The notes under the pieces were generated by a model. It did no database searches. It was given only the letters and a program-made list of their open reading frames with translations, and was not told the DNA's origin. Positions 4,446 to 59,043 of a DNA stretch of 64,000 bases are shown here, piece by piece (within the stretch, counting starts at the first letter, position 1; every line of letters begins with the position of its first letter). The stretch comes from Actinomycetaceae bacterium (GTDB lineage: Bacteria > Actinomycetota > Actinomycetes > Actinomycetales > Actinomycetaceae), in the NCBI GenBank assembly GCA_030524055.1, contig JAUNHH010000001.1, forward strand, positions 1-64,000, in the 5' to 3' direction. Position numbers and translations under genes: made by a program.

Positions 4446-4521
4446 GAACGAGGGCGGGGCTGCGCCTAGTTGGCGGGGCCGGATCAACGCAATGCGCTGA
4501 TGGTGCCACTCCGACCCCGCC
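4446..4521. repeat. Structured intergenic repeat, copy A
   Basis: It lies between the mmpL and guaB3 genes. Positions 4446-4503 match 7018-7075 at 51 of 58 bases. Both copies begin with GAACGAGGGCGGGGCTGCGCC, hence with the overrepresented 12-mer (4448-4459), and both contain a stem around CGCAATGCGCT. In this copy GGCGGGG (about 4472) can also pair with CCCCGCC (about 4515). It may end mmpL transcription or be a REP/MITE-like element. Confidence 0.75.
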
Positions 4522-4541
4522 CGCTTCTGATGGGTCCTTTC

Positions 4542-6692
4542 TTAGCGGACCTTCTTCCCTGGCCACCACCAATTCGCTTCTCCCATAACCTTCATGGCGG
4601 TCGGCAGTAATACCAACCTCAAAAGCGTGGCATCCAGAGCAATCACCAACGCCATCCCAATAGCCAGCATCTTCAAATAGGCAATCGACGAGGTGAGATA
4701 CACGAGGAAGGAGGCGGCAAGAATACCCGCAGCTGCCGTCACCAGCGGGGCCGAACGGTCAAGTCCAATCGCCACGGAATCGTCAAGGTTTTTCCCCTTC
4801 CGATGCTCATCAAAGATACGCAGGATCAGCAGCACCTCGTAGTCCATTGACAGCCCAAAAGCCAGGCAGGTCATGAGAATCGGAATCGACAAGTCGAGGG
4901 TTCCTGTTGGCGTTACCCCTATTAGCGAGGCAAAATTGCCTTCCTGGAAAACAAAGACCATCACGCCACCAAGAATCGACAGTGATGCGACATTCAGCGC
5001 TGCCGCTTTGAGGGGCAAAACAATGGTGCGGGTGGCCGCAATCAGCACCACGGTACTGGCGACAAGTAGGGTCAACAGCACCAAGGGCAAGCGCTCCGCC
5101 AAAGCCTGACGATAGTCCGCGAGCTCCGCGGGATATCCGCCGACCACCATTCCTTCAGGAGGCGGAATTTGCCGCACCTCGGCGACAAGCCCATAGGGGT
5201 CCGTTTCCATACGTTCTTCGGTCGGAACAATAATCCGCGTCACGTCAACGGGAACGCCCTGCTGAACGGGCTCCACCACCTGCGCAACACCAGGAATCTG
5301 CGCAAGACGCTGACTGTAGGTCGCGATAGCTCCCTCGTCGCCTCCATGTCCTGACCCGGGCGCGCTCCCGCCCTCGCGATTAATCACCAATAGCATGTCA
5401 TCGACATCTGCACTATAGGTGTCGCGCAGAGTTTGAGTCACTACCCGGCTGGTCGCATCGGGTGGCAAAATCCTGTCATCAGGCGGGCCAATGCGAATAC
5501 CTGTCAGCGGCGCGGCAAAGACAGTCACAACGGCGATACCCAGAACGAGATAGATGACGGGGTGTTTCATTGTGGCGCGCGCTGCCCGCCCAAAAATTCC
5601 CTCATGCTGCGGATCACGCACCACACGTGAATCCACCCACCTGCCCACAACCGCCAAAAGGGCTGGCATCACAATAATCGCCAGCAGTGTGGCCACCACA
5701 ACCACAGCCATTCCGGCATAGGCAAGTGAGCGCAGGAAAGAAAAAGGCAGTAGCACCATTGACGCCAATGCCACCACAACGGCTGCCGCAGAAACAACCA
5801 CGGTATGGCCTGCTCCGCGAAGAGCTTCCACTGGCGCTTCAGTCAGGGAGATTCCCTCCGCCCTGGCCTCGCGGTAGCGCGCAATAACGAAAAATCCGTA
5901 ATCCACGCCCAAGGCAATCCCCATGATGAGCACCAGATTCGCCGCGAAGGTGGACATTTCAACAATCGCCGCCAGGCCTCGCACAATTGCGAGGGATCCA
6001 ATGACAGAGACAATCCCTAACGCCAATGTGGTTGCAGCAGCCGCAAAACGACGGAGAATCAGGAGAAGCAGAAGGAAAACCCCGGGAATAATAATCGCCT
6101 CAGCCCGCACAAAGTCTGCTCGGGCCTGGTCTGCAGCCTGCCGGAAGACTTCTTCACTGCCGCCCACCTGGATCTCAATGGCACCGTGATTGCCGTCCAA
6201 TTCGGGCGAGAGTGAATCAAGGAGGGTGCGTGTGCGCGTTGGATCACCCACCAGGCGCGCCATAATCAGCGCAGATTCGCCATTATCAGCGGCTAAAAGT
6301 GCCCATTCCCCGGCAGACCAGTAGGAAAAGACGTCCTCGACTCCCGCAGTTGAGCGCAACGTTTCTTCAATCTGCCCGGCGGCCTCTTTGACTTCCGGAT
6401 CGCCGAGAGTTTTGCCCTGGGCAGGGCGCACAAGAAGTGTCAGATTAGGCCGGCCAGTGCCGCGCTGGGCAAGTTGCTCGGCCGCTTCAACAGAGGGTGA
6501 GCCAGGGACTTCAAAACGTGCGAGCTGTAAAGCAGACAGTGCTCCGGCAGCCACAATGGCACTCACCACTGTCACTAGCGCAGTCACCACAAGCACTGAA
6601 CGGCGATAACGAATAGACCACCGCGCAATTGCGGTCAGGATTTTCTCGATTCTACCGACAGGCGCTTCTGAGGTATTTCCATGAGCAGGCAT
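4542..6692 (-). CDS. MMPL family RND-type transporter
   Basis: A 716-residue inner-membrane transporter with the duplicated MMPL layout. TM1 is at about residues 33-58, followed by an extracellular loop, then five TMs, a second loop around 400-510 and six more TMs. Each half carries the conserved proton-relay region, GIALGVDYGFFVIARYREAR in the first and LAFGLSMDYEVLLILRIFDE in the second. Such proteins export lipids, siderophores or drugs with proton motive force; the substrate is not evident and no lipid or NRPS genes lie nearby. ATG at 6692 is preceded by AGGA. It stands alone, with a 428-bp AT-richer upstream region and structured repeats on both sides. Confidence 0.93.
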   Translation of the reverse strand: MPAHGNTSEAPVGRIEKILTAIARWSIRYRRSVLVVTALVTVVSAIVAAGALSALQLARFEVPGSPSVEAAEQLAQRGTGRPNLTLLVRPAQGKTLGDPEVKEAAGQIEETLRSTAGVEDVFSYWSAGEWALLAADNGESALIMARLVGDPTRTRTLLDSLSPELDGNHGAIEIQVGGSEEVFRQAADQARADFVRAEAIIIPGVFLLLLLILRRFAAAATTLALGIVSVIGSLAIVRGLAAIVEMSTFAANLVLIMGIALGVDYGFFVIARYREARAEGISLTEAPVEALRGAGHTVVVSAAAVVVALASMVLLPFSFLRSLAYAGMAVVVVATLLAIIVMPALLAVVGRWVDSRVVRDPQHEGIFGRAARATMKHPVIYLVLGIAVVTVFAAPLTGIRIGPPDDRILPPDATSRVVTQTLRDTYSADVDDMLLVINREGGSAPGSGHGGDEGAIATYSQRLAQIPGVAQVVEPVQQGVPVDVTRIIVPTEERMETDPYGLVAEVRQIPPPEGMVVGGYPAELADYRQALAERLPLVLLTLLVASTVVLIAATRTIVLPLKAAALNVASLSILGGVMVFVFQEGNFASLIGVTPTGTLDLSIPILMTCLAFGLSMDYEVLLILRIFDEHRKGKNLDDSVAIGLDRSAPLVTAAAGILAASFLVYLTSSIAYLKMLAIGMALVIALDATLLRLVLLPTAMKVMGEANWWWPGKKVR

Positions 6693-7120
6693 GGAACAAA
6701 TCCTAGGGAAAATATGGCGCTAAGCAATTCGAATCCTATGGCATTTATCTCCGAATATTAATGCGCAGAATTCTCACTTTCCGCGAGATAATAGGGGTAT
6801 TTTTTCTTCCAACAGAAGGGGAAAGTGAACTTTGATCACACTTCGTTTCCGCCTATATATACAGCATTTCCGGCCGTCACTACTACAATACACCACAATT
6901 CAGATAACGCAACTGGCAAATGCGACAAAAGCGGAGAAATCACAGAAGAAAATAGGCGTTAGCGTGCCTGGGAAATAAAAGGAAGGAGGTGACGATAAAG
7001 GGCATTGTGCCAATCATGAACGAGGGCGGGGCTGCGCCTCGTTGGCGGGGGTGGATTAGCGCAATGCGCTAATGCGCCCCCGCATCTCCAAATGTGGGAG
7101 CTATAAGGGACACTAGAGTC
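6693..7120. other. Divergent intergenic region between mmpL and exonuclease
   Basis: The 428 bp are AT-richer than the genes and should hold the divergent promoters of mmpL (minus) and the exonuclease (plus). Near 6980 there is an unusually strong ribosome-binding-like word GGAAGGAGGTGAC. A GTG within it (6989) opens a short frame that reads through repeat copy B to a TAA near 7069; I see no protein family in it. No other gene is apparent. Confidence 0.5.
7018..7083. repeat. Structured intergenic repeat, copy B
   Basis: Second copy of the element at 4446-4521, 88 percent identical over 58 bases, in the same orientation on the other side of mmpL. It contains the exact 12-mer ACGAGGGCGGGG (7020-7031), a perfect stem ATTAGCGCA/TGCGCTAAT around a single base, and an outer stem GCGGGGG/CCCCCGC. 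It lies just before the exonuclease ribosome-binding site. Confidence 0.75.
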
Positions 7121-7870: not shown

Positions 7871-7884
7871 GTGCACACAAAAGA

Positions 7885-7912: not shown

Positions 7913-7975
7913 CCCAGGGCGCGTCATCTAGATGCTGGCCCGCAGTCAGCGCTGCGCTGAGCGGCAGGGCAGCCT

Positions 7976-9508
<1,533 letters not shown>

Positions 9509-9593
9509 CTAGTCGCCCGCGGGCCCGCCATAATCCCCCTCATCCGCCTTGACCCCGCCCTCGTGGTCGATTCCACACGAGGACGAACCCATC

Positions 9594-13538: not shown

Positions 13539-14804
13539 ATGACTTCGCAGTTGACGCCAATCTTGTCTTCACCCGGGTGGGATATTCTCACCTCCTGGGA
13601 GAATCGCCCTGAGCGCGCAGCGATAGACCCGCTCACCCTGGGGACAATGTTGCGCGCCCAAGGGATCAGCGCCGAGATTGCCACAGCAGTGGCCTCACAA
13701 TTGGCATTGCGCGACGCAGCGGAAGCCAAGTTCGGGCTGATTGCGCGGACTATGGTTTTTACTCGCGAGGGTTTAGAACAGGCCTCCCGCCTCCTCGTCG
13801 CCACCCTTCACGCTGACCGTTTTCGCGCCGCTGGCATTACCCACCTCGCTGATCTTGGCTGCGGGATTGGTACGGAGTCCCTCGCGGCAGCAGGCCTTGG
13901 TCTTGACGTCACCGCTTTTGATATTGACGAGGACGCAGTCGGGGCGGCGGCCGTGAATCTGCGGCACTTTCCCAATGCTCGGGTGGCACGCGCGGATGTC
14001 ACCGACATTGACCTGGCGGATTTAGTGGCCGAGGGCGTGGATGGGATTTTCGCTGACCCCGCCCGCCGCAAAGGCTCTACCCGGATCAAAAATCCGCAAA
14101 ACTGGTCTCCTCCACTGTCCACCGTCTTATCCTGGCGCGACACCATTCCAGCCCTGGGGGTCAAAATGGCACCCGGAATTGACCATTCGGCATTGCCCGC
14201 CGATACCCATGTGCAGTGGGTCAGTATCGATGGGGATCTGGTTGAAGCGGCCCTGTGGACTCCTCCCCTCGCGCCAGAAGGCCCAGGTCGGTCTGCGCAT
14301 ATTATTCGCGATGGGCGTGCCCACATTCTCACTGATCCGGCCCTATTGGCAGCCAATGAACGCCAGCGCCTGGCACCCCATGGGAAGCTCGGAGCATTTC
14401 TTGCTGAAGCTGATGATGCGGTAATTCGGGCGGGGCTTTTAGCAACCCTGGCAGAAAGCGTGGATGGACATCTGATTGACCCCAAGATTGCGTATATAAC
14501 AGCAGACTCCCTGGAGCCCAGTCCCTTTATGCGCATTTTCGACGTGCTGGAAGAATGCCCGCTGCGTCCTAAAGCCATTCGTCCGGTCCTGAAACGCCTG
14601 GGAATCAGCGATATTGAGGTGAAAAAGCGGGGTGCGGATATTGATCCATCGAAGTTCCGCAGTGCGATTCTTGGCTCTTCTGCTCGTAAAGGCGCAGGCG
14701 CTAGCACCGGGGAGGCTGACGCAGACAATTCAGGTGTCGTTTTTGCCACGCGCATTCAGGGCCAGCATCGGGCCATTATTGCTCGCCGCGCAGATCGTGA
14801 CTGA
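13539..14804 (+). CDS. Class I SAM-dependent methyltransferase with THUMP-like domain
   Basis: A 421-residue protein. An N-terminal helical part (residues 1-90) precedes a Rossmann methyltransferase fold with motif I LADLGCGIGTESLAAAGLG, the acidic loop FDIDEDAV and the motif IV region GIFADPARRKGSTR. The C-terminal part (about 250-400) resembles the THUMP-like region found after this domain in actinobacteria. THUMP domains bind RNA, so an RNA target is likely but unproven. ATG at 13539 follows GGAGG by a normal distance. The start lies beside the CIRCE element, so heat-shock repression could reach it. An inverted-repeat terminator follows at once. Confidence 0.85.
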   Translation: MTSQLTPILSSPGWDILTSWENRPERAAIDPLTLGTMLRAQGISAEIATAVASQLALRDAAEAKFGLIARTMVFTREGLEQASRLLVATLHADRFRAAGITHLADLGCGIGTESLAAAGLGLDVTAFDIDEDAVGAAAVNLRHFPNARVARADVTDIDLADLVAEGVDGIFADPARRKGSTRIKNPQNWSPPLSTVLSWRDTIPALGVKMAPGIDHSALPADTHVQWVSIDGDLVEAALWTPPLAPEGPGRSAHIIRDGRAHILTDPALLAANERQRLAPHGKLGAFLAEADDAVIRAGLLATLAESVDGHLIDPKIAYITADSLEPSPFMRIFDVLEECPLRPKAIRPVLKRLGISDIEVKKRGADIDPSKFRSAILGSSARKGAGASTGEADADNSGVVFATRIQGQHRAIIARRADRD

Positions 14805-14807: not shown

Positions 14808-14847
14808 ACGAGGGCGGAGCCACACCCTTAAGTGACCCCGCCCTCGT
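14808..14847. terminator. Inverted 12-mer pair after methyltransferase gene
   Basis: ACGAGGGCGGAG (14808) and CCCCGCCCTCGT (14836) can pair around a 16-base loop, starting 4 bp after the stop codon. The second arm is an exact copy of the overrepresented 12-mer and the first has one mismatch. Confidence 0.75.
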
Positions 14848-16171: not shown

Positions 16172-16211
16172 TCACGAGGACAGGCCAAGGAATCCGGCCC
16201 CGCCCTCGTGA
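16172..16211. terminator. Hairpin between YbdK-type ligase gene and tsaD
   Basis: TCACGAGG (16172) pairs with CCTCGTGA (16204), with an inner GGCC/GGCC pairing. The right arm contains the exact 12-mer CCCCGCCCTCGT at 16198-16209. It lies between two convergent gene ends. Confidence 0.6.
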
Positions 16212-17956: not shown

Positions 17957-18013
17957 ACGAGGGCGGGGCGCGGGTAAAACTGTGTCCCCGACGCTTGGCG
18001 TCGGGGACACAGC
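17957..18013 (-). terminator. Terminator of the sdhCAB operon
   Basis: CTGTGTCCCCGACGC and GCGTCGGGGACACAG (17981-18013) form a perfect 15-bp stem with a 3-base loop. Reading the minus strand it is followed by TTTTACC, and it starts 23 bp after the sdhB stop. A single exact 12-mer copy (17957-17968) lies just beyond. Confidence 0.95.
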
Positions 18014-23460: not shown

Positions 23461-24728
23461 AGGTGGTCCTCATCCAGGGCGGGGCTATAGGTGCGGGTCA
23501 GGCGCGGGCCCAGACGGGTCACGATTTCGTAGTTAATGGTGGAGCAGGCGCGTGCCCAGTCATCAGCGGAGGGTTCGCCTCGGGCGGGGTCGCCAATAAG
23601 GACAACGCGGTCGCCAACGCGGGCAGGCGGGTGGGGGGTGCGCGCACTGGGCAGATCCGTTTCGCCGGCTGCTTCCCCCAGGTCGATCATGATTTGGTCC
23701 ATACAGACTCGGCCAATAATGCGGGTCGGGCGTGGCCCATCATCGGTATAGACGAGGGCGGGGCCGCCATTGGAGGCACTGCGGTCAATCCCGTCGGCGT
23801 AGCCCACAGGGACCAGGCCAACCCAGCGGCGGCTGGGGCTGCGCCAGGTGCCGCCATAGCTGACAGGAGTGTCCTGCTCAATAACTTTGACGCTGGTCAG
23901 GGGCGCTTCTACACGCAGGGCTGGGCGTAGTGGCGCCTCGGAGGGGTAAGTGGCGTCAGGTTCCAGCCCATAAAGGCCTATTCCGGCGCGGACCATGTCA
24001 TAGTGGGCTTCCGGGTGGAAAAGAATGGCGGATGTGGCGCCGAGGTGGCGGATCTGTGGGTGGACCCCGCCCTCGTCACAGATACGTAAAGCCTGCTCAA
24101 AGGCAGCGCAATGGTCCTGGGTGGAGGCAAGACCCGCCTCGCTGGGATCATCCCCGCGGGAAATATGGCTCCACACGCCAACGAGATCTACGAGGCCGCT
24201 CTCGATACTCATCCGAAGAGCAGACACAAGGGCGGGAAGATCGGCGAGGGTGGCGCCCGCCCGGGACATTCCCGTATCGACTTTCAGGTGCAGACGTGCC
24301 ACCTTTCCGCTATCGCGCGCTGCGGCTGTGATTTCTGCCAGGGTCGTGGTAGTCCCCACCGACAGGTCGAGGTCAGCTTCTAATGCGCAGGTCCAATCGG
24401 TGTCGGGACCTGAAATCCACGTCAGGATGGGGGCCGTGTCGCGGGCAATCCCCACCTGATCCAGGCCTGCGCGCAGCTCCAGTGCTTCGCTGAGTTGGGC
24501 CACCCCCAGCCAGTGGGCACCGGCCGCGAGCGCCGCGCGCGCCACTGGAATCAGACCATGCCCGTAGGCGTTGGCTTTGACGACGGCCATATGCTGGCAG
24601 GTCGGGGCAAGCTTCGCGAGGGTGCGGAAATTGTGGGCAATGGCGTCCAGGTCTACGGTCACCACACCCGGGTGGGTGGGCGCGGCAGGGCAGGCAGACG
24701 CGGGGGTGTGATCCGACGAAAGCGTCAT
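23454..24728 (-). CDS. alr: Alanine racemase
   Basis: A 424-residue PLP enzyme that makes D-alanine for peptidoglycan. The PLP lysine lies in MAVVKANAYGHGLIPVA (near residue 51). The TIM barrel contains LHLKVDTGMSRAGA, and the C-terminal domain has the catalytic Tyr in DTPVSYGGTWRS plus GRVCMDQIMIDLG. The N-terminus has an extra 20 residues rich in Ala/Pro. The gene contains two exact copies of the overrepresented 12-mer, read as GPALV (near 23752) and DEGGV (near 24065). Coupled to tsaE downstream. Confidence 0.96.
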   Translation of the reverse strand: MTLSSDHTPASACPAAPTHPGVVTVDLDAIAHNFRTLAKLAPTCQHMAVVKANAYGHGLIPVARAALAAGAHWLGVAQLSEALELRAGLDQVGIARDTAPILTWISGPDTDWTCALEADLDLSVGTTTTLAEITAAARDSGKVARLHLKVDTGMSRAGATLADLPALVSALRMSIESGLVDLVGVWSHISRGDDPSEAGLASTQDHCAAFEQALRICDEGGVHPQIRHLGATSAILFHPEAHYDMVRAGIGLYGLEPDATYPSEAPLRPALRVEAPLTSVKVIEQDTPVSYGGTWRSPSRRWVGLVPVGYADGIDRSASNGGPALVYTDDGPRPTRIIGRVCMDQIMIDLGEAAGETDLPSARTPHPPARVGDRVVLIGDPARGEPSADDWARACSTINYEIVTRLGPRLTRTYSPALDEDHLC

Positions 24729-30266: not shown

Positions 30267-30310
30267 ACGAGGGCGGGGTTTGCGTGTCTATAAACGCACC
30301 CCGCCCTCGT
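30267..30310. terminator. Bidirectional terminator from inverted exact 12-mers
   Basis: ACGAGGGCGGGG (30267-30278) and CCCCGCCCTCGT (30299-30310) are both exact copies of the 12-mer. With the inner TGCGT/ACGCA they make a long stem between the convergent coaA (ends 30252) and glmM (ends 30325). Confidence 0.85.
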
Positions 30311-31753: not shown

Positions 31754-31779
31754 CCCCGTCCTCGTCAACGAGGGCGGGG
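31754..31779 (-). terminator. Terminator of rplM-rpsI from inverted 12-mers
   Basis: CCCCGTCCTCGT and ACGAGGGCGGGG are separated by 2 bases; the second is an exact 12-mer and the first has one mismatch. On the minus strand the stem is followed by a T-rich run (CTTTCCTTTTCC) and lies 24 bp after the rpsI stop, making a classic intrinsic terminator. Confidence 0.9.
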
Positions 31780-34147: not shown

Positions 34148-36910
34148 TCAGGTGGTGTGGGTGGGCTCAATAAAGACGGTGGCGCTGGTGGCGGGAAGAG
34201 TGAGAGCGGCGCCGGTTGGGGTGAACGTGGCGGCGCGCAGGGCCGGGTCTGCGCCGCTGGCCTGGATGGGGTGGAGGATGAAGTTTTTTGTATCCAGGCT
34301 TGGCACCTGAAGGGTGACAGGCGTGGGCCAGGGGTTAAAGGCCAGAAGAAGAGTGTCGAGGGCGGGGTCACAATCTGGGCTGGAGTGGGCAGATGAGTCC
34401 TCAATGCGGAGCAGGATGCAGCCAGGTGGGCCCTGATAGGTCGGGAAGGACACTTTCTGGCGGATCAGGTGGGCACTGCCCAACCAGAAGAGCCCGGTGG
34501 AGGCACGTAGGCGCAGAAGATCCAGGCAGGACTCCCGCATAGAGTGCATATCAGCGCTGGTAGGACGCAGTTCCGGATTGCTAAGGAGGGGGCGCATCAG
34601 ATCCCAGCGCCACCCATTATGGGAGTGCCGGGGTAAGCCCACCCCGAAAGTGGAGTCCTGAGCGGTCCAATCCACGGCATTAAAATAATCTCCAGAATCA
34701 AAAGAATCCCGATCCAGGCTTTTCGACCGGAGAATTTCGGTGCCCGCATGCCATAAACACGGCCCTTGCCCGAGGGTCACAACCGCCAAGGACATGAGTG
34801 CATAGCGAATCCGCTCCTCCATGGGGGTAGTAGCAGGTAGCTTCCACGCTAAGATGTCAAAAAGTGTTTCATTGTCGTGGGCATCAACATAGGCCAGGCT
34901 ATCCCCCACTTCAGTGCCCCAGGCAAGAGGGGTGTTCCCCCACGGAATATCGCCTGCACGAATCTCACCGAAGCCCGTGGCGTCCGGCAGAGACATTGCT
35001 GCCAAACCCCCAGCAAGGCTGGAACGGATCGCGCTCGCCTGCAGCCACAGGTGGTGGCGTTGCTCGCGAGTCAGGTCAGTATCCGAGGGCGCCCCGCCCT
35101 CGTCGCATAAGGGAATGGCCAACGGATCGACCCCATTGGGTCTGCCGCACAGACCCGTTGCCCACCCCTGCCAGGCTCGATGGTCGCTATCGAAAGGGCT
35201 GCCGCCGCGCAGCGCGTCGCGCACCCGGTCATCAAAAGCAGCAATATGTCCTCCCACGCAGTGACGCTGGGTTGCCTGAGGGAATAGTGCGTCGCCTGCA
35301 ATCGGGCCGAAATCCCACCCCTCACCGTGGAGGGTCACGGCCCTGCCATCAACCCCATGATCTGAAAGGTTTAGCGCGTCGAGGCTGGCGCGAATCCGGC
35401 GGACTAAAGCAATTGGCATATGGCCCATCAGGTCAAAACGAATCCCATCACAATGGTGGTGCACCACCCAGTGAAGCACCGAAAATTCAATAAGTCGGCC
35501 CACCATGAGATTTTCTGGGGCGGTGTCGTCATTACAGGCTGACCCTTCGATAACGCCCACATCATTACGGCGGTGATAGTAGCCCGGGACAATCTGGTCC
35601 AGAACAGAAAAAGGCCTGCGCCCCGAAGCGGCCATATGGGTAAAAACCCCGTCAATTACTACGCGCAGACCTTCGCGGTGCAAAGCCGCCACCATCTGGC
35701 GGAACTGGAGCAGGCGCCCTCCGCCACCGCGAGCCTCGCGCGTCACATAGGACCCTTCTGGGGCAGCCCAATGAACGGGGTCATAGCCCCAGTTATAGGC
35801 ATCCCGGTCTGCGGTAGCCGAGATCAGCTCTTGGGGAAGAGGACTGGCTGGGTCGGCGGCGGGACTACTCAGGGGGCCGGCCGGGAGGTCTGGGTGGACC
35901 TGGTCCTCCTCATTTTCTGGCACGGTCGCAAAATCGTAGGTCGGGAGCAGCTCCACCGTGGTCAGGCCCGCCTGAGCCAGCCCGCGCAGATGCCGCATTC
36001 CTGCACTGTCCCGGTGAGTAAAAGCCAGGTAGCGGCCGCGATGCTCTGCTGGCACCGCCGCGTCGCGGGCAGAAAAATCGCGGACATGGACTTCCCAGAT
36101 CACCTGGCGGGCCGGATGCGGCACAGCCGGACCCGCATCTGAATGCCACCCCAGCGGGAAATACTGCGGATCAGCCGGGTCCACAAGGACCGAACGGGTC
36201 CCATTGGCTGTCAGTGCCACACTGGCCGGATCGGTGACCTCCACACTTTCACGGTGACGGATGACGCTGAGATCAGCCGTGGCTTCGCTGCGGTCACGGT
36301 GAAGGCGCCACACATACTGGCGGTCTTTCCACTCCGGCGCCCCCACGCAGCGCCAATTCCCGCTGGCCGGGTCAAACTCAGCGGGAATGATCTGCGGGGC
36401 ACATAGTGCGGCCCCGCCCTCGTCAGTCGGCCATAAAAGGAGGTCAACGCTCAGGGCCGTTGGTGCCCATAGGTGGAGGGTAGGTCGCCCTTCCTCCCAG
36501 ATAGTGCCAATGGGGCAGGTCGCAGCCCCAGGGTAGAGCGCGTCAAGAGCTTTAGCGATGTGGGTACCTGTCGCATGGCACAGCGTATTGCCGCAGAAAA
36601 TTTGGAGAACCGGATCGTGGCGGAGACACTCACGGAGCAGATCCGCCGTATCAAGAGGCTGCCCAGGCGAGAAGGCGGCAGCACGCACACGAAATACCTG
36701 CCACCTGCCCTTTTTAAGGCGCCCCACCGCCTGGAGGTGTTCAGCGGTGGGATAACCCGCAGGCAGAAGGGCCAGCTCAGGATGGAATGCAAAACGACAA
36801 TGCGCCTCAAGGGGGACCATGGCCTCGGGAATGGCCAAAGTGTCGCCACTGACCCAGATGGCGCGGGCAGGGCCAGGGGCAACACTAGTGACGAGGGCGG
36901 GGCCAGTCAC
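34148..36910 (-). CDS. pulA: Type I pullulanase (GH13 alpha-1,6-glucosidase)
   Basis: About 920 residues. A CBM48-like domain (around 145-230, TIWEEGRPTLHLWAPTALSVDLLLW) precedes a GH13 barrel. Signatures are YNWGYDPVHW, region I VIDGVFTHMA (His), region II GIRFDLMGHMP (nucleophile Asp), region III LHGEGWDFG (acid/base Glu) and region IV YVDAHDNETLFD. No signal peptide is seen, so it probably debranches glycogen or imported dextrins inside the cell. Start is GTG at 36910, overlapping the truA stop (GTGA) with GAGGA 9 bases upstream; GTG at 36919 is the alternative. Three exact 12-mer copies lie within it (35092, 36412, 36891), and a one-mismatch copy lies near 34356. Confidence 0.92.
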   Translation of the reverse strand: MTGPALVTSVAPGPARAIWVSGDTLAIPEAMVPLEAHCRFAFHPELALLPAGYPTAEHLQAVGRLKKGRWQVFRVRAAAFSPGQPLDTADLLRECLRHDPVLQIFCGNTLCHATGTHIAKALDALYPGAATCPIGTIWEEGRPTLHLWAPTALSVDLLLWPTDEGGAALCAPQIIPAEFDPASGNWRCVGAPEWKDRQYVWRLHRDRSEATADLSVIRHRESVEVTDPASVALTANGTRSVLVDPADPQYFPLGWHSDAGPAVPHPARQVIWEVHVRDFSARDAAVPAEHRGRYLAFTHRDSAGMRHLRGLAQAGLTTVELLPTYDFATVPENEEDQVHPDLPAGPLSSPAADPASPLPQELISATADRDAYNWGYDPVHWAAPEGSYVTREARGGGGRLLQFRQMVAALHREGLRVVIDGVFTHMAASGRRPFSVLDQIVPGYYHRRNDVGVIEGSACNDDTAPENLMVGRLIEFSVLHWVVHHHCDGIRFDLMGHMPIALVRRIRASLDALNLSDHGVDGRAVTLHGEGWDFGPIAGDALFPQATQRHCVGGHIAAFDDRVRDALRGGSPFDSDHRAWQGWATGLCGRPNGVDPLAIPLCDEGGAPSDTDLTREQRHHLWLQASAIRSSLAGGLAAMSLPDATGFGEIRAGDIPWGNTPLAWGTEVGDSLAYVDAHDNETLFDILAWKLPATTPMEERIRYALMSLAVVTLGQGPCLWHAGTEILRSKSLDRDSFDSGDYFNAVDWTAQDSTFGVGLPRHSHNGWRWDLMRPLLSNPELRPTSADMHSMRESCLDLLRLRASTGLFWLGSAHLIRQKVSFPTYQGPPGCILLRIEDSSAHSSPDCDPALDTLLLAFNPWPTPVTLQVPSLDTKNFILHPIQASGADPALRAATFTPTGAALTLPATSATVFIEPTHTT

Positions 36911-37854
36911 GAACAGCACTCCTCGGTGTTTTCTGACTCTGCTGGGCCGGTGGCGCTCGCGGGCCCTTGGCTGTCACGGCGCTGGCGTGCCTGGGCGATC
37001 CGTGTGGCCCACTGGTCCGGCGGCGGATAGGTGACCTTTTCCAGTGTTAAACCATGAGCGGGAGCAATAGGAGCCGCTGATTGACGGGACTGAGCAGCTA
37101 AAAGCTCACCTGGCCACTGCGGTGGGCGCCGCCCGCACCCCACTTCGAGGAGGGCACCCACCAGCGAGCGCACCATTGAGTGGCAAAAAGCGTCCGCGCC
37201 CACATGGAAGGTGAGAATGCCGGCCGTATCACGGTCAATATCGAGCCTGGTGAGGGTGCGAATAGTGGTGGCACCCTCACGGGGGCGGCAATAGGACAGG
37301 AAATCATGGGTCCCGAGGAGTGCCTGGGCGGCGCTGGCCATACGTTCGCCATCCACGGGCGCAGCAATCCACGTCACATCATGGCGACGAAGAGGGTCAT
37401 GACTGGTAGCGTCAGCTACCCGGTAGGAATACTCCCGGCCTGTGGCGGCAAAACGAGCATCGAAAGTGTCATCCACTGCCTGAATCTGGTGGATCACGCA
37501 GTCGGATTGGCCGCGGACAGCGGAAATACCGTGACTGGCTGCCCACTGGCAGTAGGCGTAACTCAACATGCTATTGAGACGGCGGGCAAGTTTAGGGGCG
37601 TGCGAATCTGTTGGGATGTCGCGGCCCGCTTTAGTCTCCCAGAAATCTCGCGGCAGGTCGCAGTGGCAGACCTGGCTTCGCGCATGAACGCCCGCATCGG
37701 TGCGACCAGCAACAGTGAGAGTGACAGGCGTGCGGATAATCGTTGCCAGAGCCGATTCAATCTCGCCTTGGACTGTGCGCAAGTCGGGTTGCGCCGCCCA
37801 TCCATGGAAATGCGTTCCGTCATAAGACAGATCCAGTCGCAGGCGCACAGTCAT
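36907..37854 (-). CDS. truA: tRNA pseudouridine(38-40) synthase
   Basis: A 315-residue enzyme that modifies the anticodon arm. The catalytic Asp lies in TVAGRTDAGVHARSQVCH (near residue 54), after the N-terminal RLDLSYDGTHFHGWAAQ; the C-terminal half has FLSYCRPREGATTIRTL and SMVRSLVGALLEVG. The last 35 residues are an extra Ser/Ala/Glu tail ending ECCS. It follows rplQ as in many bacteria, and its stop overlaps the pulA start. Confidence 0.96.
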   Translation of the reverse strand: MTVRLRLDLSYDGTHFHGWAAQPDLRTVQGEIESALATIIRTPVTLTVAGRTDAGVHARSQVCHCDLPRDFWETKAGRDIPTDSHAPKLARRLNSMLSYAYCQWAASHGISAVRGQSDCVIHQIQAVDDTFDARFAATGREYSYRVADATSHDPLRRHDVTWIAAPVDGERMASAAQALLGTHDFLSYCRPREGATTIRTLTRLDIDRDTAGILTFHVGADAFCHSMVRSLVGALLEVGCGRRPPQWPGELLAAQSRQSAAPIAPAHGLTLEKVTYPPPDQWATRIAQARQRRDSQGPASATGPAESENTEECCS

Positions 37855-37911
37855 AAACCCAGTCTAAACGGCGAGCCCCGCCCTCGTAACTGGGCACAAG
37901 CACATGGAAAA

Positions 37912-37943
37912 GGGGCTGGGGATCGTTGCGATCTCCCAGCCCC
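37912..37943 (-). terminator. Terminator after rplQ
   Basis: On the minus strand GGGGCTGGG pairs with CCCAGCCCC, followed by TTTTCC, 30 bp after the rplQ stop. It ends the alpha operon; truA is then 58 bp further on with one exact 12-mer copy (37876-37887) in between. Confidence 0.9.
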
Positions 37944-37972
37944 TCATCTCAAGGCACAAGTGCCAACTCAGC

Positions 37973-38503
37973 TCACTTCTCGTCAGCCTCAGCGGTTTCC
38001 TCAGCAGCAGCTTCCTCAACCTCAGTCGCTTCTTCAGCAACCTCTTCAGCAGGAGCTTCCTCAGCAGCAGCCTTCTTCTCGTCCTTCTTGGCAGCAGCCT
38101 TAGCGGTCTTCTCAGCGGTAGACACAACCGCCTTCTTTTCGACGCGCTCCATAACGAAGGAAATCTGCATCAGGGGAGCATTGTCGCCCTTACGGTTGCC
38201 CACGCGGATCAGACGGGTGTAGCCACCTTCACGAGTGCCATCCATTTCAGGGACAATCACATCGAAAAGGGTGTAAACGGCGTCACGGTTAGGGATACGA
38301 CGGGCAACGGTACGACGAGCATGCATATCGCCGCGCTTTGCCTTGGTGACGAGCTTTTCCACGAAGGGCTGCAGGACGCGGGCCTTAGCTTCAGTGGTGA
38401 CAATCTGACGGTGCTCAATGAGCTGAACAGCCAGATTAGCCAGAATACGCTTCTGGTGAGCTGGGCTACCGCCCAGGCGAGGGCCCTTCTTAGGGGTAGG
38501 CAT
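37973..38503 (-). CDS. rplQ: 50S ribosomal protein L17
   Basis: 176 residues. The conserved L17 core ([46 protein letters not shown] through [13 protein letters not shown]) is followed by an Ala/Glu/Lys-rich acidic tail of about 50 residues, as in many actinobacteria. It is last in the alpha operon, directly after rpoA and before the terminator. Confidence 0.98.
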
Positions 38504-40098: not shown

Positions 40099-40163
40099 GT
40101 GTGTCAGTTCCTTTGAAGTCGTGTAGGGATGTCCCGCCATATACGAGGGCGGGGCGTGGCCTA

Positions 40164-41205: not shown

Positions 41206-41234
41206 CCCCGCCCTCGTCATTCACGAGGACGGGA
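41206..41234. terminator. Inverted 12-mer pair after the exopolysaccharide-type cluster
   Basis: CCCCGCCCTCGT (41206-41217, exact) and ACGAGGACGGGA (41223-41234, two mismatches) form a hairpin with a short loop, 10 bp after the stop of the DUF2334 gene and before the infA promoter region. Confidence 0.75.
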
Positions 41235-43173: not shown

Positions 43174-44523
43174 TCAGGATGCCGCAAGACTCCCAGGAGC
43201 GAGATTCCCTGCGGGTTTTCCTGAATCTAAGGCAGACAGGGGTGCAGATGCAACACCGTCCGGAGGATCAGCTTCGCGGGCAGTTTTCGCCCAGCCGCGC
43301 TGCGCAGTTAATTGCCTGACCAGGGCACGCCAGCCACTAACATAAGACAACATTCCGTAAAGAATAAAGATATGAGACCAACCAATACAGCTGAGGAGTT
43401 TCGCACCCGATTCACGTTCAATACGCCAATAGACGAGCGCGAAAATCAGTCCCGGGCCAAAAGCAAGAAGATAGGCGCCGAAAACCCAGCCAAAAGGCTG
43501 ACCGCCTACAGTGAGCTGTTGGTGAAGCACCCATAGAAGGCATAGGGCAAAAGAAATAGTCAACAACGAGGCGGCTAGTAGTAAATATGGCGTAATAATT
43601 TGGTAGAGACTGTCAGCCCGCGCCCGCCCCTTTTGATGGCGAATCACATGCCAAATCATCCCGCTGGCCTGCAGATTTCCTTGGAACCAGCGCGTCCGCT
43701 GACGCAAATAGCGACGCAACGAAGTCACACCTTCCTGATGCACACAGGCAAAAGGAGAATACTCGTTAGTCCAGCGCGTGCCATTCAGACGAATCCCAAG
43801 ATCAAAATCTTCGGTCAGGGAATGTGACCAGGGCGCTTCACCTAAAGCATTCAGGGCACTCAGACGCACAAATTGGCCATTTCCACCAAGGCCAACACTG
43901 CCTAGGTGGCGCCGACCGCGTTGGAAGACCTCAGTAAAGACCACGAATTCCATATCCTGCATTCGGGCCAAAAGGGACTTCCGGCGGTTTTCAATACGCA
44001 CACCAATTTGCAGTGCGCCCACCTTAGGGTCAGCAAAAATCTGGCGGGCCTCATTAAAAGCCCAAGGATCCACATGCCCATCAGCATCAACGACGCCAAT
44101 AACGACATTATCTGCAGGAAGATAGCCATACACTCGGCGCACCATTGCCAGGGCGGCATTCAATGCCTCCCCTTTTCCTTTGCGCGCATTGGGCAAAGTC
44201 CTGCGCAAAAGGTGCACTCGTGGGTGGCCAATTTTTTCTACGAGGTCGGCTGTCCCATCATCACTGCCATCATCAATGACCAGAATATGCAGTCGCGATG
44301 TATCGGAATGAAGAAGGCGATTCACCGAATCAATAATGACGCTTGCTTCGTTTAGGCACGGCATAAGGATGACCATTTCAGGGCCATTAGAGGCCAGCCC
44401 CGCCCTCGTCCGTGCCCCTGGGGAACGTCGTGAGGCTACGAGGAGGAGGATCGCATAAACGATCCCCACAATGATCATTGCAATGGCGCCGACATTTCCA
44501 AGAATCTCGACGACACCGCTCAT
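43174..44523 (-). CDS. Processive family 2 glycosyltransferase, membrane
   Basis: 449 residues. One N-terminal TM is followed by a cytosolic GT-A domain (about 50-300) and three or four C-terminal TMs. The processive signatures are VIDDGSDDGT, the DxD VVDADGHVD, the acceptor-site LTEDFDLGIRL (TED) and QRTRWFQGNLQA (QxxRW), as in PgaC, IcaA and cellulose/hyaluronan synthases. It likely polymerises and extrudes a polysaccharide. Its ATG overlaps the stop of the small membrane gene (ATGA), and the DUF2334 gene follows. One exact 12-mer copy is read as TRAGL (near 44398). The sugar is unknown. Confidence 0.9.
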   Translation of the reverse strand: MSGVVEILGNVGAIAMIIVGIVYAILLLVASRRSPGARTRAGLASNGPEMVILMPCLNEASVIIDSVNRLLHSDTSRLHILVIDDGSDDGTADLVEKIGHPRVHLLRRTLPNARKGKGEALNAALAMVRRVYGYLPADNVVIGVVDADGHVDPWAFNEARQIFADPKVGALQIGVRIENRRKSLLARMQDMEFVVFTEVFQRGRRHLGSVGLGGNGQFVRLSALNALGEAPWSHSLTEDFDLGIRLNGTRWTNEYSPFACVHQEGVTSLRRYLRQRTRWFQGNLQASGMIWHVIRHQKGRARADSLYQIITPYLLLAASLLTISFALCLLWVLHQQLTVGGQPFGWVFGAYLLAFGPGLIFALVYWRIERESGAKLLSCIGWSHIFILYGMLSYVSGWRALVRQLTAQRGWAKTAREADPPDGVASAPLSALDSGKPAGNLAPGSLAAS

Positions 44524-45919: not shown

Positions 45920-45959
45920 ACGAGGGCGGGGTCCGCGACTCACGCAGCCCCGCCCTCGT
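45920..45959. terminator. Hairpin of two exact inverted 12-mers between adk and map
   Basis: ACGAGGGCGGGG (45920-45931) and CCCCGCCCTCGT (45948-45959) pair perfectly around a 16-base loop, 10 bp after the adk stop. It would end or weaken transcription from secY-adk into map. Confidence 0.8.
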
Positions 45960-45968: not shown

Positions 45969-46559
45969 TCACATCGCAGTTTTTGACGCCACAATACGAT
46001 CGAGAACGTCAGCAATCCTGGCGAAAACTTCATCGGGAGTACCCGACCCATCGACGCTTTCGAGCAGATCCTGATCCGCGTAATAGGTGGCAATAGGTTC
46101 GGTACGTTCCTCATAGACCTCAAGGCGGTGGCGGAACACTGGCTCAGTGTCATCACTGCGATGCTCTTGCTCAGCACGCAGGAGCATCCGCCGGACCAAC
46201 TCATCCTGCTCGACCTCAATATTGAGGACCAGATCCAACGTCACACCGGTATCGGCAAGCAGATCGCGCAGGACATGAGCCTGGTCAAGGGTACGCGGAT
46301 AGCCATCAAGGAGAAATCCTTTAGCAGTATCAGGCGCCGACAAACGGGCCTTCACCATTGGATTTGTCACCGAATCGGGAACAAACTCTCCGCGATCCAT
46401 AAACTCTTGGGCGCGCTTTCCCAGCTCTGTACCCCGGGCCATATTCGACCGGAAAATCTCGCCAGTGGAAATAGCGGGAATACCAAGACGTTCACTAATG
46501 CGTTGGGCTTGTGTGCCCTTTCCGGCCCCAGGAGGACCGAGCAAGATAATGGAAATCAA
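45969..46559 (-). CDS. adk: Adenylate kinase
   Basis: 196 residues of the short (no zinc lid) form. The P-loop is LLGPPGAGKGTQAQRISERLG, the NMP site includes STGEIFRSNMARGTELG, and FLLDGYPRTLDQAHVL precedes the short lid near residue 125. It balances AMP, ADP and ATP. Start is TTG at 46559, overlapping the secY stop (TTGA), with AGGGG upstream. Confidence 0.96.
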   Translation of the reverse strand: MISIILLGPPGAGKGTQAQRISERLGIPAISTGEIFRSNMARGTELGKRAQEFMDRGEFVPDSVTNPMVKARLSAPDTAKGFLLDGYPRTLDQAHVLRDLLADTGVTLDLVLNIEVEQDELVRRMLLRAEQEHRSDDTEPVFRHRLEVYEERTEPIATYYADQDLLESVDGSGTPDEVFARIADVLDRIVASKTAM

Positions 46560-47848: not shown

Positions 47849-48009
47849 GGCATCCTCCTGAAGTGGTGAGCGCCCATAATGGGCTGTGACGGCGACCGAC
47901 CTAGCCTACCGGAGAGTTCAAACATTTCCTGGGTATCCCCGGGGGATAATGCGGATTTGTCGAATAAGTAAGGCTGGGATTGGGGACGAGGGCGGGGTGC
48001 ACGGCGAAA

Positions 48010-52537: not shown

Positions 52538-52971
52538 TACTACCGCAGTCGGCAAGTGGGACGAAACCAGCATTGGCGTGAGTTGGCCCATGTGGGAAGT
52601 CATCATTGACGAGGGCGGGGCGCGGGTTGATATACCGCGAATACTGGCAGCAAAAGTCCAAGGCGCCCCGGCTCGCAAACTTCTCGTGCCAGGAGACAAT
52701 AAGGGACACTTATTCTTCGATCAGGTTGACACTGCAATGCGGGCTGCTGGCTGGAAGTATGGGGCGACATCGGAAAGCGCCCGCAGTCCCCTATTAGATC
52801 TCCTTGCCTTACCCGCTTAGGACTGCATCTAGTTACACTCAGCTCTCCTCAAAAAATGTCCCAACTTGTCAATATGTCCCATTTAGAAGCCACAACTCCC
52901 GCCTCCCCTCTCCCTCACCCTGGCCCCACACAAACAAACCGCCACCACAACGAAGATCCGCCGCCCCAAAC

Positions 52972-55324: not shown

Positions 55325-55355
55325 TTCTTCTGGCCTCTACTTCCCTAAGGCCGGC

Positions 55356-55637
55356 TCAGCGCCGGCGCCCCTTACGGTCGTCCTTATCGTGGCTGCGGAA
55401 GGTCCGCGTGGGAGCGAACTCTCCAAGCTTGTGGCCCACCATCGATTCGGTAATGAAGACGGGCACATGCTTGCGGCCATCGTGCACGGCAAAGGTCAGG
55501 CCAAGGAAGTCCGGGGTAATGACCGAACGGCGAGACCAGGTCTTGATGACATTCTTGGAGCCAGATTCGATGGCGGCATCCACCTTCTTCATCAGGTGGT
55601 CGTCAACGAAGGGGCCCTTCTTTAAACTACGCGGCAT
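55356..55637 (-). CDS. rpsS: 30S ribosomal protein S19
   Basis: 93 residues: [79 protein letters not shown], complete, in the 30S head. It follows rplB by 16 bp. Confidence 0.98.
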
Positions 55638-55653
55638 TGTTCCAGCTCCCTAA

Positions 55654-56490: not shown

Positions 56491-56513
56491 GATGTTCCTC
56501 TACTTCCGGCGCC

Positions 56514-56819
56514 TCAGGCCTGATCGCCGAAGATATCGATGGTGCCCTCGCGAACAGTCACGATGGCGCGCTTGACGTCCTTGCGACGACCAATTCCGTC
56601 ACGAGTACGGTAGGCCTTGCCCTTGCGGTTCTGGGTGGCAATAGAGCCCACCTTGACGCCGAAAATCGCTTCGATCGCAATCTTGATCTCAGTCTTATTG
56701 GCGCGCGGGTCAACCTCAAAGGTGTACTTGCCCTGGTCCATCAGCACGGAGGACTTTTCCGTAATAACGGGACGCAGGATAATGTCGCGGGGATTCTTTC
56801 CCGCCTCAATGGTGCTCAC
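56514..56819 (-). CDS. rplW: 50S ribosomal protein L23
   Basis: 101 residues: [60 protein letters not shown], complete, at the tunnel exit where SRP and trigger factor dock. Its start overlaps the rplD stop. Confidence 0.98.
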
Positions 56820-57460
56820 TTGGTCTCCTCCTTGGTTCCCAGGAAGGTCTGGAGGGCACCGAGGGTGAAGACCACGTGATCCGCTTCGAGGACGTCGTAG
56901 GTATTCAGCTGGTCAACCCACAGAACGTGGACCTCAGGGACGTTACGCAGTGATAAAGCGGTGACCTCTTCAGTGCGCTCCAGGACAACGAGAGCCTTGC
57001 GTCCCTCGCTAATAGCGCGCACAGCGGCCATACCAGCCTTGGTTGATGGGGTTTCGCCATCGATGAGGCCGGTGACAATGTGAATCCGATCAGCGCGTGC
57101 ACGATCCGACAGAGCAGAACGCAAAGCGCCCTTCTTCATCTTCTTGGGGGTGCGCTGAGAGTAGTCACGCGGCTGAGGGCCGTGAACCGTGCCACCACCG
57201 GTGAACTGGGGTGCGCGGATAGAGCCCTGACGAGCGTTACCGGTGCCCTTCTGACGGAAAGGCTTCTTACCACCGCCGGAAACCTGGCCGCGGGTCTTGG
57301 TGGCGTGGGTACCCTGACGGGCAGCCGCCATCTGAGCCACAACAACCTGGTGCATCAGCGGAATATTGGTGGGGACGTCGAAGATTTCTGCAGGCAACTC
57401 GACAGTGCCCGTCTTCTTTCCCTTCAGGTCGAGGACATCGACCGTGCGGACGTCAGACAT
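56816..57460 (-). CDS. rplD: 50S ribosomal protein L4
   Basis: 214 residues from ATG at 57460 ([29 protein letters not shown]). The tunnel loop [47 protein letters not shown] is intact. In E. coli L4 represses the S10 operon; no evidence for that mechanism is visible here. Confidence 0.98.
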
Positions 57461-57462
57461 GA

Positions 57463-58131
57463 TCACGCACCCTTCACAGAGGAGCGAACCAGGACGACAC
57501 CATTCTTAGGACCGGGAATGGCGCCGCTAATGAGAAGCAGACCCCTTTCGGTATCCACGGCCTGAATCGTCAGGTTCTGGACGGTACGACGCACGCCACC
57601 CATACGGCCGGCCATGCGCTGGCCACGGAAGATGCGGCCCGGAGTCGCGCAGGCGCCGATAGAACCGGGCTTGCGGTGATTGCGGTGGGCGCCGTGTGAG
57701 GCAGAAACGCCAGCGAAGCCATGTCGCTTCATAACACCAGCGAAACCTTTGCCCTTGGTATTGCCGGAAACATCAACGGCAGCGCCAACTTCAAAGAGAG
57801 AGGCGTCAAGTTCCTGGCCGAGTTCATAGGTATCGACCGAGGAAGTACGCACCTCAGCGAGGTGACGCTTAGGGGCAACACCCGCCTTAGCGAAGTGGCC
57901 AGCAAGGGGCTTGGTGACCTTGCGTGCGTCAATATCCTCAAAACCAAGCTGAATAGCGGTGTAGCCATCAACCTCAAGGTCACGGACCTGGGTGACGACA
58001 TTGGTGCCAACCTGCACGACAGTGAGGGGCACGAGACGGCCGTCAGCATCCCATACCTGGGTCATGCCGAGCTTGCGGCCGAGCAGGGCCTTAATGGGCC
58101 TGCCAGCGTGCTGCTTTTTGTCAGTTGTCAT
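57463..58131 (-). CDS. rplC: 50S ribosomal protein L3
   Basis: 222 residues: [29 protein letters not shown], the [23 protein letters not shown] block and [24 protein letters not shown], including the loop that reaches the peptidyl transferase centre. ATG at 58131, 11 bp after rpsJ. Confidence 0.98.
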
Positions 58132-58142
58132 TGCAGATGTCC

Positions 58143-58451
58143 TCAGAGTTTGATCTCGATGTTGACGTCCGCAGGCAGATCGAGACGCATCAGCGAGTCG
58201 ACGGCCTTGGGGGTCGGGTCAATAATGTCGATGAGCCGTTTGTGCGTGCGCATTTCAAAGTGCTCGCGGCTGTCCTTGTACTTGTGGGGCGACCGAATGA
58301 CGACGAAAACGTTCTTTTCGGTCGGCAGCGGAACGGGGCCCACGACAGTGGCGCCTGCGCGCTGCACGGTTTCCACGATTTTCCGCGCGGAGCTGTCGAT
58401 GACCTCATGGTCATACGACTTGAGCCGGATGCGGATCTTCTGTCCCGCCAT
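58143..58451 (-). CDS. rpsJ: 30S ribosomal protein S10
   Basis: 102 residues: [75 protein letters not shown], complete. It is first in the S10 operon and also pairs with NusB in antitermination. Confidence 0.98.
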
Positions 58452-59043
58452 GCCGTCTTACCTCTTCTCGTACAGATCCGTCACCGGTCCCCGCGCTCGG
58501 GCGTGTCGCAATAGCGACCACACGATTCCGCGGTTTTCCCCGTAGGTCGGGGATGGACCGTTGTCTTGTCTAAAGATCTCGGGCCGTTGCGGCCCATGAG
58601 CGCCTAGAGAATCTCTACACACTCAGCCCCACCTGCGCGGGGCAACCTCACCAGTTTGGCAGATTGCACCGATCTCCATCAACTTTGCCTTGCCGCATTC
58701 AGTGTGAAACCACTGACATCACATGGCTTTAGTCAATGTCTCCGCCTTTACCGATTACTCGACGAGGGCGGGGTGAAGCACCGGGGATCTACGCTACCCC
58801 GCACTCGGGCGTGTCGCCAAGTCAAGGTGAGGCATCTCGCGCAGCGCCCCGCCCTCATGAATTCATTGACGAGGGCGGGGGAAATACCTACTCACCTGAC
58901 TAATCAGATATGAAGAGTTGGACATTTATGCAGGTAAAACGGGGTTTTAAGGCGATAAGATCGACAGTTGCATGACCAGGTCCACCTTCGGATTCCTGGC
59001 GCCATCACTGCTCATGCCATCACCTATACGGAGGTTACCGTCC
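58452..59043. other. Divergent region between the S10 operon and adhesin gene
   Basis: 592 bp without a supported gene. It should hold the S10 operon promoter and leader (a GGGCCG/CGGCCC stem lies near 58581-58595) and the promoter of the plus-strand adhesin. An exact 12-mer lies at 58762-58773. A near/exact inverted pair (58847-58858 and 58869-58880) lies roughly midway and may insulate the two divergent units. I could not single out confident -35/-10 boxes. Confidence 0.55.

Follow-up and report, generated by a model that had tools for sequence, protein, structure and literature searches.

A candidate DNA uptake sequence with related species dialects in an actinobacterium

To our knowledge, self-specific uptake words are known only in the Neisseriaceae and Pasteurellaceae, both of which have an outer membrane and type IV pili, and we know of no self-word for Micrococcus luteus. 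The USS of Haemophilus influenzae occurs in about 1471 copies in 1.8 Mb. Pasteurellaceae USS are described as having a rigid core and a softer flank and as evolving gradually by point mutation (PMC1939737). The account of the DNA uptake sequence (DUS) of Neisseriaceae gives many copies in both genes and spacers, terminator-associated inverted pairs and dialects with a conserved core (PMC3630211). M. luteus carries two tad loci alongside comEA and comEC, seems to have no other type IV pilus genes, and requires comEC as well as genes from each tad locus for transformation; the main text of that study does not contain the term "uptake sequence" (PMC4322843). A literature search of titles and abstract openings, mostly open-access and exclusive of bioRxiv preprints, had no actinobacterial DNA uptake sequence among the matches listed.

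Here we analyze a word in the draft genome of a monoderm actinobacterium of the Actinomyces family (G000, 3.03 Mb), including a 64,000-nt stretch of it that we call the window. As in the Neisseriaceae DUS, this is a short, abundant word of genes and spacers, with inverted pairs and species dialects that share a conserved core. However, the DUS belongs to another phylum and envelope type, works with type IVa pili and has the receptor ComP, whereas the candidate G000 word is unrelated and GC-rich and is accompanied by Tad/Flp loci; the variants in the genus are also patchier, and a clear word is missing from some congeners. Like the Pasteurellaceae USS, the word has a core that is rigid and a flank that is softer, evolves gradually by point mutation and occurs at a copy density of the same order (1001 in 3.03 Mb), but the sequences are unrelated and G000 is without strong AT-rich downstream modules. 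Like M. luteus, with its Flp-pilus-dependent transformation, G000 has comEA-comEC and two Tad loci. REP/BIME elements with RAYT transposases are likewise dispersed short repeats, many of them extragenic and some paired; G000 differs in that no Y1 transposase was found, in having no longer unit, and in genic copies that fit point mutation.

Copies in the window and shape of the element

An earlier note on this DNA had reported that a 12-mer, ACGAGGGCGGGG, is hugely overrepresented across the window, with 24 exact copies that are nearly always followed by C or T. Our recount places all 24 at the same coordinates (13 plus, 11 minus) and finds C or T after 23 of them; the word tops the window's 12-mer ranking and occurs in 0 of 100 dinucleotide shuffles of the window. 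The 12-mers ranked next stem from a CRISPR-like array at about 13-2042. The positions given for one-mismatch copies were correct within one base, but the list omitted 2481, 4389, 9097, 9721 and 17066. The reported division into 18 intergenic and 6 genic copies (two in alr, three in pulA, one in GT2) agrees with ours. The heuristic ORF caller, which overcalls ORFs, puts 12 of the 24 exact copies inside ORFs, i.e., the 6 genic copies and 6 others, whose ORFs we judged spurious from their position (e.g., one is antisense to rpsM). The names adk, rpsI, rplO, rpsM and rplN used below come from translations or gene order, not from family searches.

Single exact copies are intergenic at 4448..4459 (plus; a one-mismatch inverted partner is at 4389), 7020..7031 (plus), 9553..9564 (minus) and 17957..17968 (plus), the last adjoining another inverted repeat of 15 bp. 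The copy at 16198..16209 (minus) is in the convergent spacer following the glutamate-cysteine ligase gene, and that at 37876..37887 (minus) is in the spacer upstream of ORF 36907-37854, an unsure assignment as the caller favored the overlapping ORF 37180-38103. Another, at 40143..40154 (plus), is directly downstream of the stop of a putative rpsM, identified by eye from its translation. The copy at 47986..47997 (plus) is in the spacer upstream of secY, with a neighbor read as rplO from gene order, and the copy at 52609..52620 (plus) is upstream of rplN, as judged by eye, and inside a putative ORF without an NCBIfam match; 58762..58773 (plus) is read as spacer. Within genes, alr holds an antisense copy (23752..23763, plus) and a sense copy (24065..24076, minus), pulA holds 35092..35103 and 36412..36423 (both minus) plus an antisense copy at the 5' end of its ORF (36891..36902, plus), and the GT2 glycosyltransferase gene holds 44398..44409 (minus).

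The remaining copies are arranged as inverted pairs. Two pairs are exact: 30267..30310 (30267 plus, 30299 minus), in the convergent spacer after glmM, has a hairpin of -34.8 kcal/mol, and 45920..45959 (45920 plus, 45948 minus), after ORF 45969-46559, which we take to be adk from gene order, has one of -37.5 kcal/mol. At 14808..14847, following an ORF that ends at 14804, a one-mismatch copy (14808, plus) and an exact copy (14836, minus) form a stem-loop, as do an exact copy (41206, minus) and its two-mismatch inverted partner (41223) at 41206..41234. The other arrangement is seen upstream of glmM at 31754..31779 (31754 minus, one mismatch; 31768 plus, exact), where the neighbor is presumably rpsI by gene order. 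The pair at 58847..58880 (58847 minus, one mismatch; 58869 plus, exact) is read as spacer. Alignment of two spacers from the window gave nothing usable.

When 131 copies are aligned, the full signal is approximately ATTR-ACGAGGGCGGGG-Y. The conserved length proposed earlier therefore needs revision: the element measures ~17 bp rather than 12, and its 12-mer form belongs to one species instead of being constant across the genus. Positions -4 to -1 and +13 are likewise under selection. Outside -4 to +13, conservation among the 131 copies is not strong, with A and T just weakly enriched between about +19 and +25, and the copies are not embedded in a conserved palindrome of the 20-40 bp or so that marks REP/BIME elements. 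The word is non-palindromic, and in 122 of 131 one-mismatch copies the mismatch falls at positions 1, 7 or 10-12.

Abundance and placement across the genome

The enrichment, which the earlier note held should extend genome-wide, does so: G000 has 1001 exact 12-mers in 3.03 Mb, 500 forward and 501 reverse, compared to 0 and 1 by strand for the reversed word used as a control. A 464-kb sample contains 131 exact copies vs. 0.31 expected under an order-4 Markov model. Codon or GC bias is excluded as the cause, since resampling of synonymous codons expects less than one copy per class (observed/expected: 37/0.2 sense, 35/0.4 antisense and 56/0.0 intergenic). Strand balance also holds for the relaxed form CGAGG.CGGGG (106/106 in 464 kb; between-stretch heterogeneity, p = 0.93), with no skew within the sampled local stretches of this draft genome, which has no mapped origin. 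The "even spread" noted earlier stands insofar as copies are dispersed over the genome, but they lie at random, not regular, intervals (the number of exact copies per 20 kb is Poisson-like, with a mean of 5.7 and a variance of 5.6).

Spacers make up 10% of the sampled sequence yet hold 59 of the 131 copies, while called ORFs hold 72; this intergenic share (45%) is probably an underestimate because the ORF caller overcalls. Convergent spacers contain 19 of the 59 and divergent spacers 2, and the median distance from spacer copies to neighboring gene 3' ends is 39.5 bp vs. a baseline of 102. The 262 exact and one-mismatch copies include 23 close adjacent pairs, of which 12 have one facing orientation, 10 have the opposite one and 1 is tandem; most copies are unpaired. 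Folding was strong in six out of six inverted pairs, and such hairpin-forming pairs near gene ends are present in G000.

Dialects and competence genes in the genus

Relatives in the genus carry variants of one word, in which the core is common and the 3' half differs by species; base +7, for example, is mostly G in G000 and C or A in some other congeners. This indicates, at the level of sequence, that dialects with a common core exist in related species. Motif fits to 60-80 kb (order-4 background, fixed prior) yield about 500 sites/Mb in most genomes; these small-sample counts were not used, so dialects were read only where k-mer and whole-genome patterns agree.

The form ATNGACGAGGNCGGGG has 285 copies in G000, 233 in G004 and 39-78 in nine other congeners, and its reversed control has 0 in all 35 genomes. 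A GlmM tree, in which the wrongly extracted rows G019 and G017 were disregarded, groups G000 with G033 and G029 (support 85/98); the exact 12-mer counts of these three are 1001, 0 and 0. None of the genomes searched outside the genus has more than 22 copies. G033 has its own form, TTGNCGAGGCGG, with 147 copies, whereas each of the other 34 genomes has 18 or fewer. It was the one such species-specific word put to a whole-genome check, which it passed, and it shows no enrichment in spacers, where 4 of 46 copies lie. The word signal is weak, absent or unclear in G002, G018 and G029. A weaker word in G029, CTGAGGCAAAGG, with 6 copies that each lie antisense within a called ORF, is not claimed here. 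In some congeners, loose patterns reach only ~2x expectation, and outside the genus ACGAGG.CG occurs 69 times in G048 vs. 36 expected. Strands are unequal for the wide form in G005 (43/19) and G027 (37/21) and for the 12-mer in G026 (6/17). An apparent skew in G004, seen as long plus-strand runs, was rejected as a listing effect (eight stretches are balanced, 30/27). The glmM spacers of five genomes were inspected and gave nothing usable.

Following the earlier note's suggestion to look for comEA, comEC and pilus genes, we found comEA-comEC, with SLBB and HhH domains in comEA, and two Tad/Flp pilus loci with pilin genes. G000 has just two PF00437 matches above the cut-off, and these are the ATPases of the two loci. 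By gene content, G000 is thus predicted to have competence machinery. The pilins of both Tad loci offered no clear receptor candidate, as inspection of their sequences and isoelectric points revealed no clear DNA-binding feature. Congeners in which the word is rare or missing, such as G029 and G018, also have comEC and the Tad gene, so the genes and the word do not track each other.

A DNA uptake sequence and its rivals

Altogether, we consider it likely that a competent actinobacterium uses this word as its DNA uptake sequence, and the best reading of the G000 system is that it "works like a DUS." This reading, put forward in the earlier note, is supported by genome-wide enrichment that neither a mobile repeat nor codon or GC bias explains, and additionally by species variants with a common core, inverted pairs, gene-end bias, and comEA-comEC with two Tad loci. 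The REP element and chromosome-organization alternatives fit worse.

A binding site for an intracellular DNA-organizing or repair protein (nucleoid, segregation, recombination hotspot), kept by selection, would also be dispersed, highly specific and strand-balanced genome-wide; a change in the protein could likewise yield species variants, and the unequal strands of G005 and G026 would fit an oriented site there. However, Chi- and KOPS-type sites show replication-linked skew, of which G000 has none in local stretches of a draft genome without a mapped origin. Spacing is random, such a site predicts neither the scarcity in divergent spacers nor the inverted pairs near gene ends, and the very different copy numbers among the three close relatives are odd for a housekeeping site, making this explanation unlikely. 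The high copy number, the frequent location in spacers and the occasional inverted pairing could suggest a REP/BIME-like or other short mobile repeat spread by a transposase, but this origin is strongly disfavored and, in our view, highly improbable. The RAYT-type Y1 transposase (PF01797) has 0 matches in G000 and is matched in 5 of 14 control genomes, copies are mostly single, and conservation is not strong past ~17 bp. In tblastn comparisons of genic copies with homologs lacking the exact word, 38 of 45 alignments are gapless, and the genic copies appear to have arisen in situ by point mutation. These alignments cover 25 out of the 134 genic copies used as queries, after discarding those with <45% identity or <8 residues past the site on either side; the seven not counted as gapless include alignments incomplete near the site. 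Together, these results speak strongly against the longer mobile repeat that the earlier note had considered.

We also give very little weight to a family of intrinsic terminators in which half-hairpins needed at gene ends drive enrichment. The strong folding of inverted pairs and the proximity of spacer copies to gene 3' ends agree with it, but 72 of 131 sampled copies are within called ORFs, copies are mostly unpaired, and terminators do not require a fixed sequence common with coding copies. Termination may instead be a possible secondary use, as described for the Neisseria DUS (PMC3630211). As for an artefact of composition or codons, Asp-Glu-Gly codons of GC-rich genomes do produce GACGAGGGC, and the loose patterns of some congeners amount to just ~2x expectation. 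Yet resampling expects 0.2-0.4 copies vs. 35-37 per strand and the spacers show the largest excess; for G000 the artefact is refuted and has next to no chance of being the explanation.

If the word is indeed an uptake sequence, a surface DNA-binding protein, most likely an Flp minor pilin, would bind it in loose double-stranded DNA, which would be pulled inward via ComEA and ComEC and then recombined. Because word-bearing fragments would be taken up more often, the word would accumulate by molecular drive wherever it is harmless, especially in the spacers close to gene ends. Inverted pairs there would fold to stem-loops that might also act as transcription terminators, and a change of receptor would cause the whole genome to drift toward a new dialect.

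More broadly, sequence and gene content make it likely that this is self-recognizing, Tad/Flp-based uptake in a Gram-positive (monoderm) bacterium, independent of Neisseriaceae and Pasteurellaceae, in which genus dialects favor own DNA and one species carries ~1000 copies. If true, this would be a third, independent origin, meaning that selective uptake needs neither an outer membrane nor those pili, and a sequence-specific receptor, which may be part of the Flp pilus, would be expected. The genus would then be the second group to provide a natural experiment on how dialects act as a gene-flow barrier.

Abundance and form of the 12-mer

All 24 exact copies that the earlier note had placed in the window are present at their positions, and a pyrimidine follows 23 of them, as it had also claimed. 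The enrichment is genome-wide: the source genome G000 (3,034,260 bases in 47 contigs), whose genus is Schaalia-like within the family Actinomycetaceae, contains 1001 exact copies, split 500/501 between the forward and reverse strands, and 0/1 occurrences of the 12-mer read backwards as a control. In a 464-kb sample of G000 (the window plus 20 stretches), the word is the most over-represented 12-mer, with 131 copies vs. 0.31 expected under an order-4 Markov model. Copies with zero, one, and two mismatches number 131, 131, and 147, compared to means of 0.1, 4.8, and 78 for 30 permuted words. The earlier note had named codon or GC bias as something that would refute its reading. Synonymous-codon resampling (30 rounds) gives an expectation of 0.2 genic copies in sense and 0.4 in antisense orientation, where 37 and 35 were observed; for spacers, an order-2 model predicts 0 copies, vs. 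56 observed. These results rule out such an artefact.

Alignment of the 131 copies shows a signal from -4 to +13, with no strong conservation found beyond this extent and weak A/T enrichment downstream, at about +19 to +25. From -4, the 5' flank reads A (67%), T (69%), T (47%), and R; the 12-mer is followed by C or T in 122 copies. Among the 131 one-mismatch copies, 122 deviate at positions 1, 7, or 10-12 and none at positions 3, 4, or 6.

The window also holds a CRISPR-like array (13-2042), in which 17 repeat cores recur every 61 bp between 13 and 989 and outlying cores lie at 1860 and 2042. Its repeat resembles type I-E repeats.

Placement, pairing, and origin of the copies

As assigned by a heuristic gene caller, spacers make up 10% of the 464-kb sample yet hold 59 of the 131 copies. 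Convergent spacers contain 19 of these 59 vs. 17-18% of spacer bases, and divergent spacers contain two vs. 22%. Spacer copies with at most one mismatch lie a median of 39.5 bp from neighbouring gene 3' ends (baseline 102 bp). Of 23 close pairs, 22 are inverted, and chance would yield ~10 close adjacent pairs, all orientations together. Of the 12 inverted pairs with one arrangement, nine have gaps of 15-20 bp, and of the 10 with the opposite arrangement, seven have gaps of 8-12 bp. Folding of six window pairs gave a hairpin each time (z from -3.7 to -7.5).

Usable homologues in sampled congeners (genomes of the same genus) were available for 25 of 134 genic copies in relaxed form. They gave 45 alignments, of which 38 are gapless and seven contain gaps or do not align fully around the site. 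The mismatch rate is 37% inside the 12-mer, comparable to 43% around it. The earlier note had considered a longer mobile repeat; these alignments speak against mobile-unit insertion, and the genic copies probably arose by point mutation. A search of G000 for a Y1/RAYT transposase found none.

Variants of the word among related genomes

Across 35 genus genomes, the exact 12-mer is most frequent in G000 (1001), followed by G004 (190), G028 (157), G015 (135), G014 (108), and G009 (93), and is absent from six. A wider form, ATNGACGAGGNCGGGG, has its highest counts in G000 (285) and G004 (233); nine further genomes have 39-78 copies and the last 24 no more than 18, and the reversed control is absent from all 35. 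Outside the genus, the 12-mer reaches a maximum of 19 in 178 family genomes and 22, in a 4.4-Mb genome, in 389 order genomes (28 within the family).

In genome samples, G predominates at position +7 of the loose core ACGAGG.CG in G000, G009, G014, G015, and G017, C in G006, G024, G013, G010, and G019, and A in G025. The position is mixed in G004 and G028, with no clear base elsewhere; the copies listed for G001 are nearly all of the ..GGCCGGGG form. In ORFs, this core is at least 2.5 standard deviations above codon-aware expectation in 18 of 18 sampled genus genomes, and signals are weak in some congeners. Two genomes from beyond the genus were also sampled: G040 has no excess (18 vs. 23 expected), and G048 has one (69 vs. 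36).

The GlmM of G033 is 88% identical to that of the window (81% for G002, Schaalia canis). G033 has zero exact 12-mers, and its own top words spell ATTGnCGAGGCGG. TTGNCGAGGCGG occurs 147 times in the whole G033 genome (74/73); none of the other 34 genomes has more than 18 copies, and reversed controls never exceed 10. TTG.CGAGGC, picked from the same G033 sample in which it was tested, gives 24 sense copies vs. 1.9, 18 antisense vs. 1.3, and 4 in spacers vs. 0.4 under the codon-aware expectation; the whole-genome count reaches beyond that sample. Spacer enrichment is absent for the G033 word (4 of 46 copies). No clear word was found in G029, the other close relative (49% GC in sample). G018 has seven wide-motif copies vs. 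39-78 in nine relatives of the same group, and a GlmM tree places it with G024, G006, and G020; it may have lost the word recently, and it retains comEC.

Several genomes carry other repeats. The second word of G015, GAGCGGACTTCG (36 copies in its sample; convergent spacers hold 17 of the 21 copies that lie in spacers), forms clusters of a 23-bp tandem unit (stretches L073, L086-L088, L090, and L091). G048 has a similarly arranged 23-bp tandem unit of unrelated sequence, with CGAGATCGGGAC inside it; its 21 copies lie in L287 and L289, two of five sampled stretches. In G002, CGAGTGGTC was rejected as a genome-wide word: all 11 copies form a local repeat in L297, and the other three sampled 20-kb stretches have none. 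A repeat core occurring 62 times within a single G006 stretch (L264, 7730-13428) is perhaps a large CRISPR array.

Competence genes and a predicted role in DNA uptake

The earlier note had suggested looking for competence and pilus genes, and G000 has genes of both kinds. comEA, whose product has SLBB and helix-hairpin-helix domains, adjoins comEC at C46, and two Tad loci encode the ATPases along with TadE/TadG-like proteins, a T2SSF protein, and a pilin-like DUF4244 protein. Inspection of the pilins of both Tad loci yielded no clear candidate receptor for the word. comEC is present in 33 of 35 genus genomes and the Tad T2SSF gene in 34 (each in 32 of 32 good ones); comEC and Tad genes are kept in congeners without a clear word, and therefore the genes alone do not predict it. 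In Micrococcus luteus, according to PMC4322843, transformation was lost when comEC was deleted, and it also depends on genes in both tad loci. Separately, window 62873-63988 matches the C-terminal part of a SpaH/EbpB-family LPXTG-anchored major pilin model, a sortase pilus distinct from Flp pili.

The observed features match the DNA uptake sequences (DUS) of Neisseriaceae, in which, according to PMC3630211, dialects likewise have a common core and inverted pairs are associated with terminators. They also match the gradual accumulation of uptake words through uptake bias and mutation outlined in PMC1939737. The main rival is that the word is a site for an intracellular DNA-binding protein. Several features make this less probable: copies are randomly spaced (counts of exact copies in 20-kb bins follow a Poisson-like distribution with mean 5.7 and variance 5.6), local strand skew is absent, divergent spacers are avoided, and species differ abruptly. 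The relaxed form CGAGG.CGGGG is 106/106 by strand across 21 G000 stretches (heterogeneity p=0.93) and on both strands in 20 of them; because of this local balance, Chi- or KOPS-type sites are disfavoured. Unlike in G000, whole-genome strand counts are unequal for the wide form in G005 (43/19) and G027 (37/21) and for the 12-mer in G026 (6/17).

Altogether, we infer an uptake bias for the word in G000. Among the literature matches listed (titles and abstract openings), none describes an actinobacterial uptake word, and a 2025 review describes Neisseria as an exception to unspecific DNA recognition. Since these matches include no earlier actinobacterial report, we treat the word as a new example of an already known type of element, conditional on its predicted role in uptake.
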